Source: an uncultured Eubacteriales bacterium
Lineage (GTDB): Bacteria; Bacillota; Clostridia; Peptostreptococcales; Anaerovoracaceae
Assembly (NCBI GenBank): GCA_900315895.1
Contig: ONAY01000015.1
Location: 1-35,094 of the forward strand
DNA length: 35,094 nt
Direction: 5' to 3'
The position numbers and the translations under genes were made by a program. The notes under the pieces were generated by a model, which made no database searches, was not told the DNA's origin, and worked only from the letters and a program-made list of their open reading frames with translations. Below, piece after piece: positions 20,832 to 27,168 of this stretch. The first letter of the stretch is position 1; every line of letters starts with the position of its first letter.

Positions 20832-21239
20832 TTACCTGTTTATCTTTGATACCTTCAGTCTTGAGGTGGCCCGGGCCAGCTGCCGCTGGGCCTCGGCATA
20901 AGTCCTTTTGCTCTTGTGCCGGACTATTTCCTCTCTGGCCTGTTCCGCCGCACGCTGGGCACGGTTTACATCTATCTCATCCGGATATTCTGCAGCGCCT
21001 ACCATCACCGTCACCACACCGTCCTTGACTATGACCATTCCGGCCGCCACGAAGGCGTGAGTATCCGCTCCGCCGGGGGTCCTGTAGGTCAGTTCCCCGG
21101 GGATGATACCCGCGATCATATTCATATGTTTTGCCTGGATCCCGTACATGCCTTCTGTGGTAGGCACGATCAGGGATTCTGCCTGTCCTTCGAAGAGATC
21201 TCTCTGGGCGGCCAGGATGTGAAGTTCGAATGTGTTCAT
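20832..21239 (-). CDS. atpC: ATP synthase F1 epsilon subunit
   Basis: The 135-residue epsilon subunit, part of the central rotor stalk; it couples rotation and can inhibit ATP hydrolysis. The N-terminal beta sandwich has FELHILAAQRDLFEGQAESLIVPTTEGMYG and GVVTVMVGAAEYPDEIDVNRA, typical of the family. The C-terminal two-helix region (AEQAREEIVRHKSKRTYAEAQRQLARA) is present. It follows atpD by 24 bases. No clear GGAGG precedes the ATG; the gap instead has a GCGCAAAAAATC stretch, seen in similar form at other junctions. Confidence 0.95.
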   Translation of the reverse strand: MNTFELHILAAQRDLFEGQAESLIVPTTEGMYGIQAKHMNMIAGIIPGELTYRTPGGADTHAFVAAGMVIVKDGVVTVMVGAAEYPDEIDVNRAQRAAEQAREEIVRHKSKRTYAEAQRQLARATSRLKVSKINR

Positions 21240-21263: not shown

Positions 21264-22712
<1,449 letters not shown>

Positions 22713-23642
22713 CTATTTTCTCCGGGCCTCCTGCAGTTCTTTCGCTCTCTTCTGGCCTCTGAAGCCCGCCGAGATCTCGGTGATCTCCCGGGTGATGGCC
22801 CCCTGGCGCACGTGGTTGTACTCCAGGTTCAGGCTGCCCAGAAGCTCCTCGGCGTTGTCGTTGGCGGCGTCCATGGCGGTCATGCGGGCGCTCTGCTCGG
22901 AGCAAAAGCTTTCCACCATGGCACTGTAGATGAAGCCCTTGACGTAGCTGGGCACGATGGTCTCGAACACCGTCACCACGTCGGGCATGTACTCCGTGAT
23001 CTCGCTCAAGGACTTCTTCTCCTGAGTATCGAGGGCGTAGTCCTCTTTTGCGAAGGGCAAAAGCTCAATGCTCTGGGGCGCCCCTCCGGTCAGGCCGTTT
23101 CTGAAGGCGGTGTAAACTATGTACAGCTTCTGCACCCTGCCCTCGTTGAAATCGTCGATCACGTAGTCCCCGATCTCTCTGGCTCTATCCAGTGTGGGAT
23201 CCATGTTGGAGTAGTCGAAGCCTTCGTCCATGGAACTGTCGTGCTCCAGGTAGTAGTGCCTGCCGTACTCCCCTATGACATAGAGCTTGTGGGATCTGAT
23301 GTGCTCCTCTGTGATAAGCCTCTGCACTTCCTTGATCACGTTCTGGTTATAGGCTCCGCAAAGCCCCTTGTCCGCCGTGATCACCACGATCCCCACCGTT
23401 TCTTCCTGCTCGGGGGAGTCCACCGGGCGGCTTGCGATGAGATAATCCGTCTTCACGTCATCCGCCAGATGGATCATGCTCATCAGCTGCTCCTTGAGCA
23501 TCTCAAAGTAGGGCCTGGTCTGCTCCAGCTCCCTCTTGGCCTTGGTCACCTTGGTGGAGGAGATCAGGTACATGGCGTTGGTGATCTTTTGGGTATCACG
23601 CACGCTCTTTATTCTGTTTTTGATCTCTTTAGTGGTAGCCAT
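22713..23642 (-). CDS. atpG: ATP synthase F1 gamma subunit
   Basis: The rotor shaft, 309 residues, slightly longer than many bacterial gamma subunits. It has the N-terminal helix ATTKEIKNRIKSVRDTQKITNAM, the middle VVITADKGLCGAYNQNVI, and the C-terminal helix with RMTAMDAANDNAEEL and an RQGAITREITEISAG finish, all family hallmarks. It lies 21 bases after the alpha gene. Nothing unusual is seen. Confidence 0.97.
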   Translation of the reverse strand: MATTKEIKNRIKSVRDTQKITNAMYLISSTKVTKAKRELEQTRPYFEMLKEQLMSMIHLADDVKTDYLIASRPVDSPEQEETVGIVVITADKGLCGAYNQNVIKEVQRLITEEHIRSHKLYVIGEYGRHYYLEHDSSMDEGFDYSNMDPTLDRAREIGDYVIDDFNEGRVQKLYIVYTAFRNGLTGGAPQSIELLPFAKEDYALDTQEKKSLSEITEYMPDVVTVFETIVPSYVKGFIYSAMVESFCSEQSARMTAMDAANDNAEELLGSLNLEYNHVRQGAITREITEISAGFRGQKRAKELQEARRK

Positions 23643-23663: not shown

Positions 23664-25415
23664 CTATTTTCTCTTCAAAAAATCTTTTGCGTACTCTTGG
23701 GCGACCTCGGTGATCTTGCCCTTAAGCTCGTCGGAAAGCACCTTTTCCCTGTCTATCTCCTGGCCGATCTCCGGATACTCCGTTTCGAACTTCTCAAGAA
23801 GCCCTTTGATAAAGGTCTGCACGTCGTCCAGTTCCACGTCCACCATGACGTGAGCCATGGCGGAAACCAGCATGATCACCTGCTGGTGATGGCTGTATGG
23901 GTGATACTGAGACTGTCTCAGCATCCTCATGAGTCCCTGACCGTAGATCAGCTGCTTCCTGGTCTGCTCGTCCAAATCCGAGGCGAACTGGCTGAAAACT
24001 TCCATCTCCCTGTACTGTGCAAGATCCAGCTTAAGGGTTCCAACCGCCTTCTTCATGGCCTTGGTCTGAGCGTCGCCGCCTACACGGGATACTGATATTC
24101 CCACGTTGATGGCCGGACGCTGGCCGGAGAAAAACAGCTCGCTCTCCAGGAAGATCTGTCCGTCGGTGATGGATATTATATTCGTCGGTATGTATGCGCT
24201 GACGTCGCCCGCCTGAGTTTCCACGATGGGCAGAGCCGTAATGGATCCTCCGCCGTACTCGTCGGCCATTCTGGCCGCTCTCTCCAGCAATCTGGAGTGG
24301 AGATAGAAGACGTCGCCCGGGAAAGCTTCTCTTCCGGGTGAACGGCCGAGAAGCAAGCTCATGGTCCTGTAGGCCACGGCGTGCTTGGAAAGGTCGTCGT
24401 AGACGATCAGCACGTCTTTTCCCTGGTGCATGAAGTACTCGGCCATGGCGCAGCCCGCATAGGGCGCGATGTACTGAAGCGGCGCGCTGTCGGAGGCAGA
24501 CGCGTCCACGATCACGGTGTACTCCATGGAGCCGTGTTTCTTCAGAGTCTCGGCGATCTGCACCACGGCGCTTGTCTTTTGTCCGATGGCAACGTATACG
24601 CAGATGCAGTTCTTGCCCTTCTGGTTGATGATGGCGTCCAGGGCGATGGCGGTCTTTCCGGTCTGACGGTCACCTATGATCAGCTCACGCTGACCGCGGC
24701 CGATGGGGAACATGGCGTCTATGGAAAGTATGCCCGTCTCAAGAGGCGTGTTCACCGGCTGTCTCTGGACGATGCCGGGCGCCTGGCTTTCCACGGGATA
24801 GTATCCGTCTTCCTTGATCTCTCCCAGGCCGTCTATGGGGACTCCCAGAGGGTCTACCACCCTGCCCAGGAATCCGTTTCCCACGGGTACGCCTGCGGTC
24901 TTGGCGGTGCGGTGCACGGAGCTTCCCTCGGAAACCTCTTCATCGCCATCAAAGAGGATGCAGCCTATCTCGTTTTGCCTGATATCCTGCACCATTCCGC
25001 GGGATCCGCCCTTGAAGACCAGAATCTCCCCGTAAGTGGCGTTTTCCAGCCCCTCCACGGTGGCGATGCCGTCTCCCACGCTGGTGACCACGCCGATCTC
25101 CTGGGCCAGAGCTTCCGGCGTCCAGGTGCGTATGGTCTCCTTGATCAGCGGGATAATGTTGCCGTTTCTGGTGGGTACCTTGACCAGGGTGTCCCTCAGC
25201 TGCTGGAAACGTCCGCCCACGGACCAGTCGTAGACCTCCTGGCCCACTTCAAGTCTGAATCCTCCGGGGAAGGCGTCTGATCTCTCCCAGCGAAAATCGC
25301 AGTCCTCGCCGTAGCGGGTCTTTATGAAATTCCTGAATCGTCTTTCCTGCTCCTCGTTGGGGGCGTCGGAAGAATAGAGGACGGCAGTCTTGCTCTGAAG
25401 GTCGTTACTGCTCAT
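23664..25415 (-). CDS. atpA: ATP synthase F1 alpha subunit with N-terminal delta-like domain (fusion)
   Basis: The 583-residue protein is about 80 residues longer than usual alpha. From about residue 85 it is normal alpha: GVVTSVGDGIATVEGLENATYGEI, P-loop GDRQTGKT (248-255), ALPIVETQAGDVSAYIPTN, FASDLDEQTRKQL. Residues 10-77 instead resemble the C-terminal domain of the delta/OSCP subunit: a helix EEQERRFRNFIKTRYG, then FPGGFRLEVGQEVYDWSVGG followed by RFQQLRDTL, equivalent to the delta GG-x-G-x-D-x-S-x-x-x-R-L-x-x-L pattern. A separate atpH gene, normally between atpF and atpA, is absent; this start overlaps the atpF end by 11 bases. So delta appears reduced to its b-binding half and tethered to alpha. 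Reading the extension as delta-like rests on motif pattern; a structure prediction would test it. Confidence 0.9.
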   Translation of the reverse strand: MSSNDLQSKTAVLYSSDAPNEEQERRFRNFIKTRYGEDCDFRWERSDAFPGGFRLEVGQEVYDWSVGGRFQQLRDTLVKVPTRNGNIIPLIKETIRTWTPEALAQEIGVVTSVGDGIATVEGLENATYGEILVFKGGSRGMVQDIRQNEIGCILFDGDEEVSEGSSVHRTAKTAGVPVGNGFLGRVVDPLGVPIDGLGEIKEDGYYPVESQAPGIVQRQPVNTPLETGILSIDAMFPIGRGQRELIIGDRQTGKTAIALDAIINQKGKNCICVYVAIGQKTSAVVQIAETLKKHGSMEYTVIVDASASDSAPLQYIAPYAGCAMAEYFMHQGKDVLIVYDDLSKHAVAYRTMSLLLGRSPGREAFPGDVFYLHSRLLERAARMADEYGGGSITALPIVETQAGDVSAYIPTNIISITDGQIFLESELFFSGQRPAINVGISVSRVGGDAQTKAMKKAVGTLKLDLAQYREMEVFSQFASDLDEQTRKQLIYGQGLMRMLRQSQYHPYSHHQQVIMLVSAMAHVMVDVELDDVQTFIKGLLEKFETEYPEIGQEIDREKVLSDELKGKITEVAQEYAKDFLKRK

Positions 25416-25908
25416 GCTTTGACCCCCTCTCTTCCGCCAGGTCCACCGCGTTCAGGAACTGATCGAAGGCCTCGCTGGAAGTGGCCTTGAGGGCCAGCTT
25501 TTCCGTAGCGTCGGCGACCATCTCGGAGATCTCGGTCTGAGCCTCCTCCATGATCCTTTCCTTCTCGCGGACAGCCTCGTCCTTTGCTTCCTTGATGATC
25601 CTCTCAGCCTCGTCTTTTGCGGCCTTGATCTGGGCTTCCCTGTTTTTCTCAATGTCCTGATGAGACTTCTGCTTCATCTGGCTGATCTCCGAATCGGCGT
25701 TGGCGATCTTCGAATCGTACAGAGCCTTGGTCTCCTCGGACTCTTTCAGGTTGGTTCTGGTTTCGTTGTCCAGATCCCTGTAGGTCTTGGCCCTCTTCTC
25801 CATAAAGTCTTTCACTGGCTTATACAGCAAAAAATACAGTATGGCGAACAGCAGCAGGAAGTTGAAAAGATGCAGGAATATTTGAGTGAAATTTAAACCT
25901 AAAGGCAT
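25405..25908 (-). CDS. atpF: ATP synthase F0 b subunit
   Basis: The peripheral stalk subunit, 167 residues. It has one N-terminal membrane helix (LFNFLLLFAILYFLLYKPVKDF, the usual P-V-K/R-x-F membrane exit), then a long charged coiled coil rich in K, E and A (residues about 30-145) and a short C-terminal part SSEAFDQFLNAVDLAEERG. GGAGG precedes the ATG. In normal enzymes its C-terminus binds the delta C-terminal domain; here that domain is on the alpha subunit, whose gene overlaps this one by 11 bases. Confidence 0.95.
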   Translation of the reverse strand: MPLGLNFTQIFLHLFNFLLLFAILYFLLYKPVKDFMEKRAKTYRDLDNETRTNLKESEETKALYDSKIANADSEISQMKQKSHQDIEKNREAQIKAAKDEAERIIKEAKDEAVREKERIMEEAQTEISEMVADATEKLALKATSSEAFDQFLNAVDLAEERGSKHEQ

Positions 25909-25921
25909 CTTTTACCTCCCT

Positions 25922-26275
25922 TTAGAGTACGAAGATGATAAGTATCGCTATGAGCAGAGCGTAGATGACAACTGTCTCGATGAATACCAGACCCAGCATG
26001 AAGACTGATCTGATCTTGCCGTCCGCCTCGGGCTGACGGGAGATGGCTTCAGCTGACTTGCTGGCGGTGAGGCCCATAGCCAGTGCGCCGCCGAATGCAG
26101 CGATGCCGATGGCGATGGCCGCGGGGAGACCTTTTGCCCCGGCTGCCGTTGTCTCAGCCACGTCGGCGTCCGTGTCGGCAAAGGCGAAGCTTGTGGCGCT
26201 CATGAAGCTCATGGCCAGTACTACGAATACGACGGCCAGCGCTAAGATGGATACGAATCTTAAGGTTTTGTTCAT
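25922..26275 (-). CDS. atpE: ATP synthase F0 c subunit with N-terminal signal-like extension
   Basis: The ring subunit, 117 residues, longer than the usual 75-90. The extra N-terminus is a hydrophobic helix (LRFVSILALAVVFVVLAMSF) with a possible signal-peptidase site after AFA at residue 33, which would leave about 84 residues. The mature hairpin is typical: GIAAFGGALAMGLTASKSAEAISRQPE as helix one and loop, LGLVFIETVVIYALLIAI as helix two, with ion-binding E100. The Gln of Na+-type c subunits is replaced by M67, while the residue after the Glu is Thr, so H+ coupling is more likely than Na+, but this is uncertain. Confidence 0.93.
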   Translation of the reverse strand: MNKTLRFVSILALAVVFVVLAMSFMSATSFAFADTDADVAETTAAGAKGLPAAIAIGIAAFGGALAMGLTASKSAEAISRQPEADGKIRSVFMLGLVFIETVVIYALLIAILIIFVL

Positions 26276-26294: not shown

Positions 26295-27149
26295 CTATGC
26301 AGTCTGTGACTTGGTTTTTTGCGCTTTGGCAGAAAGTTTACTGAGTTTTTTCTCCGAGGGCTCAGAGACCTCGCCGTAGAACAGGGCCACCAGCATCGTG
26401 AGCACGTAAGCCTGGATGAGCGCGTGCAGGCAGGTGAACAGCACGCCGATAATGACCGGCAGCACGTAGCTCAGGCCCATGTAATGGTAGACCAGTTCGG
26501 TGACGATGGCTCCCGACACCAGGGCTCCGAAAAGACGGAAGCTCATGGAGATGGGCAGGGAGAATTCCTTCAACGCTCCCCCGAGACCGCCTACGCCGTT
26601 GTTCAGGATTCCTCCCAGAACGATGAACAGGTATGAGGTGCAGCCCATCATGATGGCGCCGTTGACGTCGGAAAGTGGAGCCGGCAGGGCCACGGAATGG
26701 CCGCTGGTGGTCACCGCCTGAATGCCGAAAAGTTCAAACATGGTCCCCGCAAAGATGTAAAATCCCGCGGCGAAAACGTAGGCCCCAAGCAGTCTGTTCT
26801 TCCTGGGGCTGTTGGTCTCAGAAAGTCCGCTGAAGTACCCCACGAGCCACTCCAGGACCATCTGGAATTTGCCCGGCACCAGGGTGAACCTGGGTATCAC
26901 GAAGATCCTCACGATCAGGGCAAACACCGTCAGTATTCCCGTCACCGCGAAGCCTGCTATCAGTCCGGGGTTCACCTCCAGACCGAAAAGGTCTATCTTG
27001 TTGGTGTCGTGGATGACCGAGTCCCTGATCACCGTGACTACATCCTCTTCCTGGGTGTACGACCCGGCCGTCATGACGATCCCCGCCACCAGCAGCACGC
27101 CGATCACCCCGAAGATGATGGTCATTTTTCTCTGTTGTTTCTTGGTCAT
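26295..27149 (-). CDS. atpB: ATP synthase F0 a subunit
   Basis: The stator channel subunit, 284 residues. It has the essential Arg (R205) in SMSFRLFGALVSGAIV and five to six membrane helices, the first near MTIIFGVIGVLLVAGIVM and the last near LHALIQAYVLTMLVALFYG. The GLxxxxSPRKNR-type loop before the middle helices is present. I use ATG 27149, with GGAG eight bases upstream; a second in-frame ATG 18 bases earlier lacks a site. The C-terminus is a lysine-rich tail (EKKLSKLSAKAQKTKS). No atpI precedes it; instead a metallo-hydrolase gene ends 20 bases upstream. Confidence 0.95.
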   Translation of the reverse strand: MTKKQQRKMTIIFGVIGVLLVAGIVMTAGSYTQEEDVVTVIRDSVIHDTNKIDLFGLEVNPGLIAGFAVTGILTVFALIVRIFVIPRFTLVPGKFQMVLEWLVGYFSGLSETNSPRKNRLLGAYVFAAGFYIFAGTMFELFGIQAVTTSGHSVALPAPLSDVNGAIMMGCTSYLFIVLGGILNNGVGGLGGALKEFSLPISMSFRLFGALVSGAIVTELVYHYMGLSYVLPVIIGVLFTCLHALIQAYVLTMLVALFYGEVSEPSEKKLSKLSAKAQKTKSQTA

Positions 27150-27168
27150 AAGCTTATCTCCGATCATA

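Follow-up and report, generated by a model that had tools for sequence, protein, structure and literature searches.

The window analysed here, a stretch of DNA of 35,094 nucleotides, carries an F-type ATP synthase operon with the gene order a-c-b-alpha-gamma-beta-epsilon, devoid of atpH and with intergenic gaps of at most 24 bases (Table 1). The gene order is ordinary, atpB and atpF are each present in a single copy, and atpF encodes the sole b subunit above the Pfam cut-off in the host genome. The atpA product scores 738.6 bits against TIGR00962 (cut-off 484.45), which places it among F-type alpha subunits. An alignment of alpha cores, for which 40 of 50 candidate sequences were taken, indicates that GDRQTGK, which we take to be the alpha P-loop, and SRVGG, presumably an alpha motif, are invariant or nearly so. 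A sequence-only reading of this DNA had proposed that alpha is about 80 residues too long at its N-terminus. Indeed, 59 of the 60 best of 68 PDB matches align from residue 84 or beyond, and the lone sequence among these 60 that aligns earlier is the engineered fusion 9jc1. The ORF coordinates likewise bear out that no atpH lies between atpF and atpA, which overlap by 11 bases, and the interval originally singled out, 25185-25415, corresponds to residues 1-77 of the fused alpha.

Table 1. Position of the fused alpha gene, its parts and the surrounding atp genes in the window.
Feature	Position	Strand	Size or evidence
atpC, epsilon	20832-21239	-	PF02823, PF00401
atpD, beta, 478 aa from GTG; relatives begin at residue 17	21264-22700	-	TIGR01039
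atpG, gamma	22713-23642	-	PF00231
atpA, fused alpha ORF	23664-25415	-	583 aa
Alpha core, residues 108-583 and stop	23664-25094	-	TIGR00962; GDRQTGK, SRVGG conserved
Retained alpha N-terminal helix region, residues 87-107 (NIIPLIKETIRTW...)	25095-25157	-	Conserved in relatives' alignment
Linker, fused alpha residues 78-86	25158-25184	-	
Delta/OSCP C-terminal domain (CTD), residues 9-77 of fused alpha	25185-25391	-	PF00213, hhalign
Fused alpha residues 1-8, ATG start; 11-base overlap with atpF end	25392-25415	-	
Shine-Dalgarno-like AGAGGGGG, 7 bases ahead of the atpA ATG	25423-25430	-	Read from sequence
atpF, subunit b, 167 aa	25405-25908	-	PF00430
atpE, subunit c, 117 aa; signal-peptide-like N-terminus (by eye)	25922-26275	-	PF00137
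atpB, subunit a, 290 aa; extra N-terminal hydrophobic stretch (by eye)	26295-27167	-	PF00119

The N-terminal extension corresponds to the C-terminal domain (CTD) of the delta/OSCP subunit and to no other part of it. In the whole fused alpha, PF00213 matches residues 9-77 with profile positions 103-172 of 172 (23.2 bits, cut-off 22.3), and the score is 26.8 bits when the first 108 residues are submitted alone. The alignment of 27 fused CTDs was compared by hhalign with that of 38 canonical deltas from relatives (38 of 46 taken), giving a probability of 99.15 and an E-value of 3.7e-19, with a match that spans delta 101-181 only. PF00213 also matches all 49 fused N-regions submitted to Pfam, which were taken from 52 references; eight sequences with an alpha start beyond residue 105 stood outside the 52. 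The hhalign probability and the 49 Pfam matches rule out a chance resemblance. Within the host genus the CTD is under purifying selection, with a mean dN/dS of 0.13 (16 usable of 21 pairs), compared with 0.09 for the alpha core (21 pairs) and 0.06 for the alpha helix (14 pairs). The earlier assignment of residues 10-77 to the delta C-terminal pattern is thus confirmed at the level of profiles, residues 9-77 of AtpA being a delta/OSCP CTD covalently joined to alpha.

No other portion of delta was detected. Pfam finds a delta N-terminal domain in none of the seven operon proteins, as the sequence-only reading had stated. A PF00213 scan of the whole host genome (86.9% complete, 56 contigs) at E <= 0.001 returned a single match, the fused CTD itself (25185-25400, profile 100-172), and nothing matching profile positions 1-99. 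A concealed atpH elsewhere, for which a genome-wide search had been suggested, is therefore rejected for the 86.9% of the genome at hand. Taken together, these comparisons support a delta that is cut down to its CTD and fused to alpha, with no other delta. The locus has the delta(deltaN)-alpha layout, in which the CTD stands ahead of alpha, the N-domain is missing and, in this 86.9% complete genome, a separate delta is lacking.

PF00006 detects five genes in the host genome: this alpha and its beta, the V-type A and B subunits, and Rho. Between codons 67 and 108 of the fused alpha there is no in-frame ATG, GTG or TTG, and the GTG codons 57 and 66 fall inside the CTD. Translation from the conventional alpha start, considered from the outset as an alternative, is rejected for the window, which has no start codon there; GTG 57 or 66 might still initiate within the CTD. 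As the genome shows a single F-type alpha gene, whose frame lacks a start codon around the usual alpha start, the CTD is probably present on every alpha, so that three CTDs per F1 are likely, to judge from the reading frame, unless the protein is cut or translation restarts. A start codon lies within 10 codons of the alpha start in 26 of 60 distinct fusions and is missing there from the other 34. The commonest place is a GTG coding the valine of KVP (9/60), and an ATG at +11, just past this valine, is common to five related fusions from f37, a second family of the same class.

The distribution of the fusion was established by profile match and frame length. The same layout, which the sequence-only reading had proposed to look for in relatives, is found in all seven genomes of the host genus and in 50 of the 349 genomes of the host family, the other 299 giving no fusion match. 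The family matches have E-values of 4.1e-25 or better and frames of 474-616 aa, some clipped by contig ends, and the ORFs were checked in 21 of the 50 genomes. In 49 of these 50, PF00213 finds no match besides the fused CTD; the exception, G009, has a separate canonical operon. Of 393 genomes sampled from the order (E <= 1e-12), 31 match, with one separate delta and 30 fusions that all belong to the host's own family. The class sample (391 genomes, E <= 1e-12) yields 24 matches besides the host's own, including 22 fusions from 12 families, whose loci were all checked in sequence; 12 of these 22 genomes also contain a canonical delta, and 10 show none. In the phylum sample (398 genomes, E <= 1e-10) there are six matches, namely one separate delta and five fusions, all from the host's class and with the host genome among them, a result that is no proof of absence elsewhere, Acidaminococcus fermentans being a reported case. 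Finally, a fusion-sized stop-free frame occurs in 62 of 299 genomes of f37 (about one per genus), 41 of these frames having 570-650 aa and 21 having 655-800 aa. A scan of named genomes gave 28 loci, including Mogibacterium sp., Candidatus Crickella caballi, a Roseburia sp. MAG, Tissierellia and other Clostridia; the CTD lies in the alpha ORF at 27 of them and is interrupted at L074. Among named genomes, the window is closest to Mogibacterium-like and other Clostridia MAGs, many of them of ruminant origin, and from the names at these loci we infer that the class is Clostridia.

Inspection by eye of window-like fusion operons revealed a long c subunit, of about 106-158 aa, that begins like a signal peptide. 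The a subunit is likewise long, has an additional hydrophobic stretch at its N-terminus and mostly shows RLFGA or RLFGS in place of the RLFGN of other a subunits. By the same inspection, the f37 operons L127, L129, L131, L132, L134 and L135 are without those c and a features. At L032:7469-7945 (G001), the c ORF diverges from its relatives past about residue 89, as if frame-shifted, perhaps owing to an assembly error.

In addition to CTD-only fusions, f37 contains fusions of an almost entire delta. All 21 long frames (L179-L197, L129 and L131) were examined: in 20 of them alpha is preceded by an almost complete delta, and the remaining one is a b-delta-alpha chain. The 16 short frames examined out of 41 (L198-L213) carry the CTD only. 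In an alpha tree with SH-aLRT supports, from which duplicate loci of one genome were omitted, 60 rows fall in one set (SH-aLRT 98) made up of 52 CTD-only, two tandem and two full-length fusions and four unfused enzymes. In a quick alpha tree of 63 rows including more of f37, CTD-only and full-length fusions are interleaved, with 11 label changes in all, the starred branches forcing at most two per label. A single origin of the CTD-only fusions is rejected on these quick trees, by the 11 label changes and by an AU test (p = 0.021) on a 44-row alpha and beta tree, calculated without L139, for which a wrong beta ORF had been taken, giving a very long branch. The full-length fusions L139 and L042 sit among unfused enzymes, L042 on a long branch, which argues that fusion probably arose more than once. 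The interleaving suggests that fusion came first and was followed by repeated loss of the N-domain, as expected if this domain becomes dispensable once fused; repeated loss after fusion is the simplest and the likely history, as far as these trees go. A partial delta also exists at L041:6671-7021, where a stand-alone delta of 116 aa matches only profile positions 85-171 (81.3 bits) next to an unfused alpha, the N-domain being largely lost without fusion.

Some loci carry longer chains. At L196/L214, in a genome that is 96% complete (G1352), a 778-aa ORF consists of b (PF00430, 65.0 bits), the delta CTD (29.1 bits) and alpha, within an operon of six genes, a-c-[b.deltaCTD.alpha]-gamma-beta-epsilon. 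This ORF is the sole ATP-synt_B match in that genome, which would imply three b chains per F1 unless the chain is cut or restarted; L196 has an ATG at codon 276, inside the alpha helix. At L140, from a genome that is 79% complete and forms a very long branch (G354), a 745-aa ORF combines a b-like N-terminus (28.4 bits, cut-off 28), the delta CTD (38.3 bits) and alpha. It is adjoined by a second b gene, and an ATG after GAAGGA is a possible start of free alpha. Two MAG contigs (L071 and L074) show two tandem units, each composed of the CTD and the alpha helix, ahead of alpha. No ATG, GTG or TTG is present at the beginning of the first unit in either, and L074 has a stop before alpha together with other breaks. 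The inclusion of the alpha helix in the repeat suggests that the CTD and the helix form one module. In the literature searched, no printed account was found of the full-length fusions, the tandem docks, the b-delta-alpha chains or the wide distribution.

Other unusual ORFs were observed in fusion operons. Gamma and beta are joined in one ORF of 786 aa at L120:7596-9956 (G656) and of 794 aa at L124:8115-10499 (G778), both in fusion operons and 79% identical to each other, with Pfam run on L120 only. An internal ATG (MDQK) lies near the beta start of both, with a purine-rich stretch upstream; such a rotor-stator fusion is mechanically odd unless it is cut or bypassed by internal initiation. At L118:6226-8142, a repeat of about 20 residues (MNEMSDNEFRSRVASATNG...) occurs three times at the start of the fused alpha ORF, ahead of the CTD.

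Several known systems resemble the window in one respect or another. V/A-type ATPases possess multiple peripheral stalks, which attach to the non-catalytic subunits, and their stalk proteins differ from the F-type ones; the host carries a separate V-type enzyme beside the fused F-type one. In mycobacteria, unlike in the window, delta is joined to b, and alpha remains a subunit of its own. This delta is part of a longer stator protein, with PDB chains of 445-448 aa named b-delta (see also PMC5709465). N-ATPases share with the window an operon without atpH, as described in PMC4154653. Membership of that group is rejected, since the window alpha scores 596.2 bits against TIGR03324 ('alternate F1F0' alpha), below the cut-off of 750.5, and the window has the order a-c-b-alpha-gamma-beta-epsilon and not beta-epsilon first. 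The b subunits at L045:5476-6240 and L044:2710-3507 (254 and 265 aa) score 22.4 and 26.4 bits against the delta CTD in their C-terminal part (cut-off 22.3); they belong to delta-less operons of N-ATPase-like order, with beta-epsilon first and alpha unfused.

In ordinary F-type enzymes, a single delta caps F1: its N-domain, on the threefold axis, holds the tips of alpha, and one b2 stalk is bound by its C-terminal domain. The closest counterpart of the window enzyme departs from this plan. A profile of ten fused N-regions has 9jc1 chain I as its best PDB match, and residues 11-539 of the fused alpha align on residues 6-538 of this chain. Entry 9JC1 is the delta(deltaN)-alpha FoF1 of Bacillus PS3 (Ueno et al., Nat Commun 2025, PMC12229609), in which delta residues 105-178 were placed ahead of alpha through a short linker, with the N-domain deleted and no separate delta. 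The paper reports up to three stalks and three a subunits, each b2 dimer having its own a subunit. The a and b contents were 2.2 and 1.8 times those of the wild type, and SDS-PAGE and the H+/ATP ratio both indicated about two stalks. The H+/ATP ratio was 5.8 vs 3.0 and pmf_eq was 68 vs 133 mV, ATP being made at a lower pmf, while proton pumping was below wild type; cryo-EM distributed the particles among 0, 1, 2 and 3 stalks as 15, 51, 26 and 8% (PMC12229609). In the ordinary enzyme, alpha residues 2-30 contact delta, and Ueno et al. conclude that the delta N-domain keeps the stalk number at one and that this number determines how many a subunits there are (PMC12229609). The delta-contacting part of alpha is retained in the window as the helix region of residues 87-107.

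The sequence-only reading knew of no described delta-alpha fusion without the delta N-domain. Such fusions are on record, PMC12229609 reporting, besides the engineered enzyme, a natural one without the delta N-domain, that of A. fermentans, and naming UniProt entries G4Q3K6 and A0A1I2C5T3. The layout has thus been known since 2025, and the window is a further natural case; the likeness to these three proteins is one of description alone. Our literature search, which returned best matches and covered few subscription journals, found natural delta-alpha fusions only in Ueno et al., who rate a multi-stalk structure in them as highly likely, pending verification, and state that no multiple-a FoF1 had been identified by then (PMC12229609). 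The engineered PS3 enzyme differs from that of the window in being man-made and deprived of the epsilon C-terminus, whereas in the window operon epsilon retains its two domains, and a, b and c are of the operon's own kinds.

By analogy with the engineered enzyme, a covalent bond in the window enzyme would replace the holding role of the lost delta N-domain, and each of the three alphas would carry one CTD and thereby offer three b-docking sites. Since no part on the axis would break the symmetry, two or even three b2 dimers could dock, each bringing an a subunit against the c-ring. Extra a subunits there would mean more ions per ATP, so that a lower ion-motive force would suffice for ATP synthesis. 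The absence of the N-domain together with a CTD on every alpha makes several stalks the default expectation, and we consider it rather probable, by this reasoning, that the peripheral stalks of the window enzyme number more than one and that its ion/ATP ratio is raised. The engineered PS3 enzyme gained both stalks and a subunits and doubled its H+/ATP ratio, and we infer that the natural enzyme would do likewise. The puzzle raised by the sequence-only reading, three b-binding sites for one b dimer, may dissolve in this way, as the engineered sites take up to three b2 (PMC12229609).

The main competing explanation is that a single stalk is retained, one CTD holding b2 at a time and the other two being passengers, so that the fusion would bring no more than one gene fewer and a delta firmly attached to F1. 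The persistence of full-length fusions in many genera, including 20 of the 21 long frames of f37, speaks for it: three N-domains could hardly share one axis, so idle domains appear to be tolerated and idle CTDs become possible. The operon, ordinary in order and with a and b in one copy each, also fits a single stalk, as do the 51% of engineered particles with one stalk and the statement that every ATP synthase to date has just one a subunit (both from PMC12229609). Against it, no recognised part is left to break the threefold symmetry, SDS-PAGE and H+/ATP put the engineered homologue at about two stalks (PMC12229609), and the b.deltaCTD.alpha ORFs would place three b chains on each F1. We regard a single stalk as unlikely, though by no means negligible.

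One stalk would also result if internal initiation or proteolysis supplied free alpha, giving an F1 with one fused and two plain subunits. The start codons within 10 codons of the alpha start in 26 of 60 fusions are compatible with this, as are their shared positions (the KVP-valine GTG in 9/60 and the +11 ATG in the five related f37 fusions), the ATG after GAAGGA in L140, the ATG in the helix of L196 and GTG 57 and 66 in the window CTD; the 34 fusions that have no such codon, and the window, which has none across codons 67-108, render a mixed F1 very improbable. Alternatively, an unrecognised protein encoded elsewhere could replace the axial N-domain and restore the single stalk. Many genomes are incomplete and a strongly diverged N-domain could escape PF00213, but 49 of the 50 fusion genomes of the family are without a PF00213 match beyond the fused CTD, and the gaps of at most 24 bases in the window operon offer no space for an extra gene; we give such a replacement hardly any credence.

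Should the multi-stalk reading apply beyond the window, F-type ATP synthases of this kind may be common in Clostridia, a proposal that we hold in even balance and that draws on the fusion itself, the repeated loss of the N-domain and the joining of b in at least two lineages. If it is true, the fused b would fix three stator arms per F1 by covalent bonds, and evolution could change the number of stator arms, hence the ion/ATP ratio, as a gear additional to c-ring size; how many a subunits there are could then set the ratio, just as the c-ring does. The window and its relatives, including the six-gene operon of G1352, provide many candidates for a natural multi-a FoF1. The host also encodes an Nqr/Rnf-family membrane subunit (PF03116) and a V-type ATPase. 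Anaerobes whose ion-motive force is low would be well served by a raised ion/ATP ratio.
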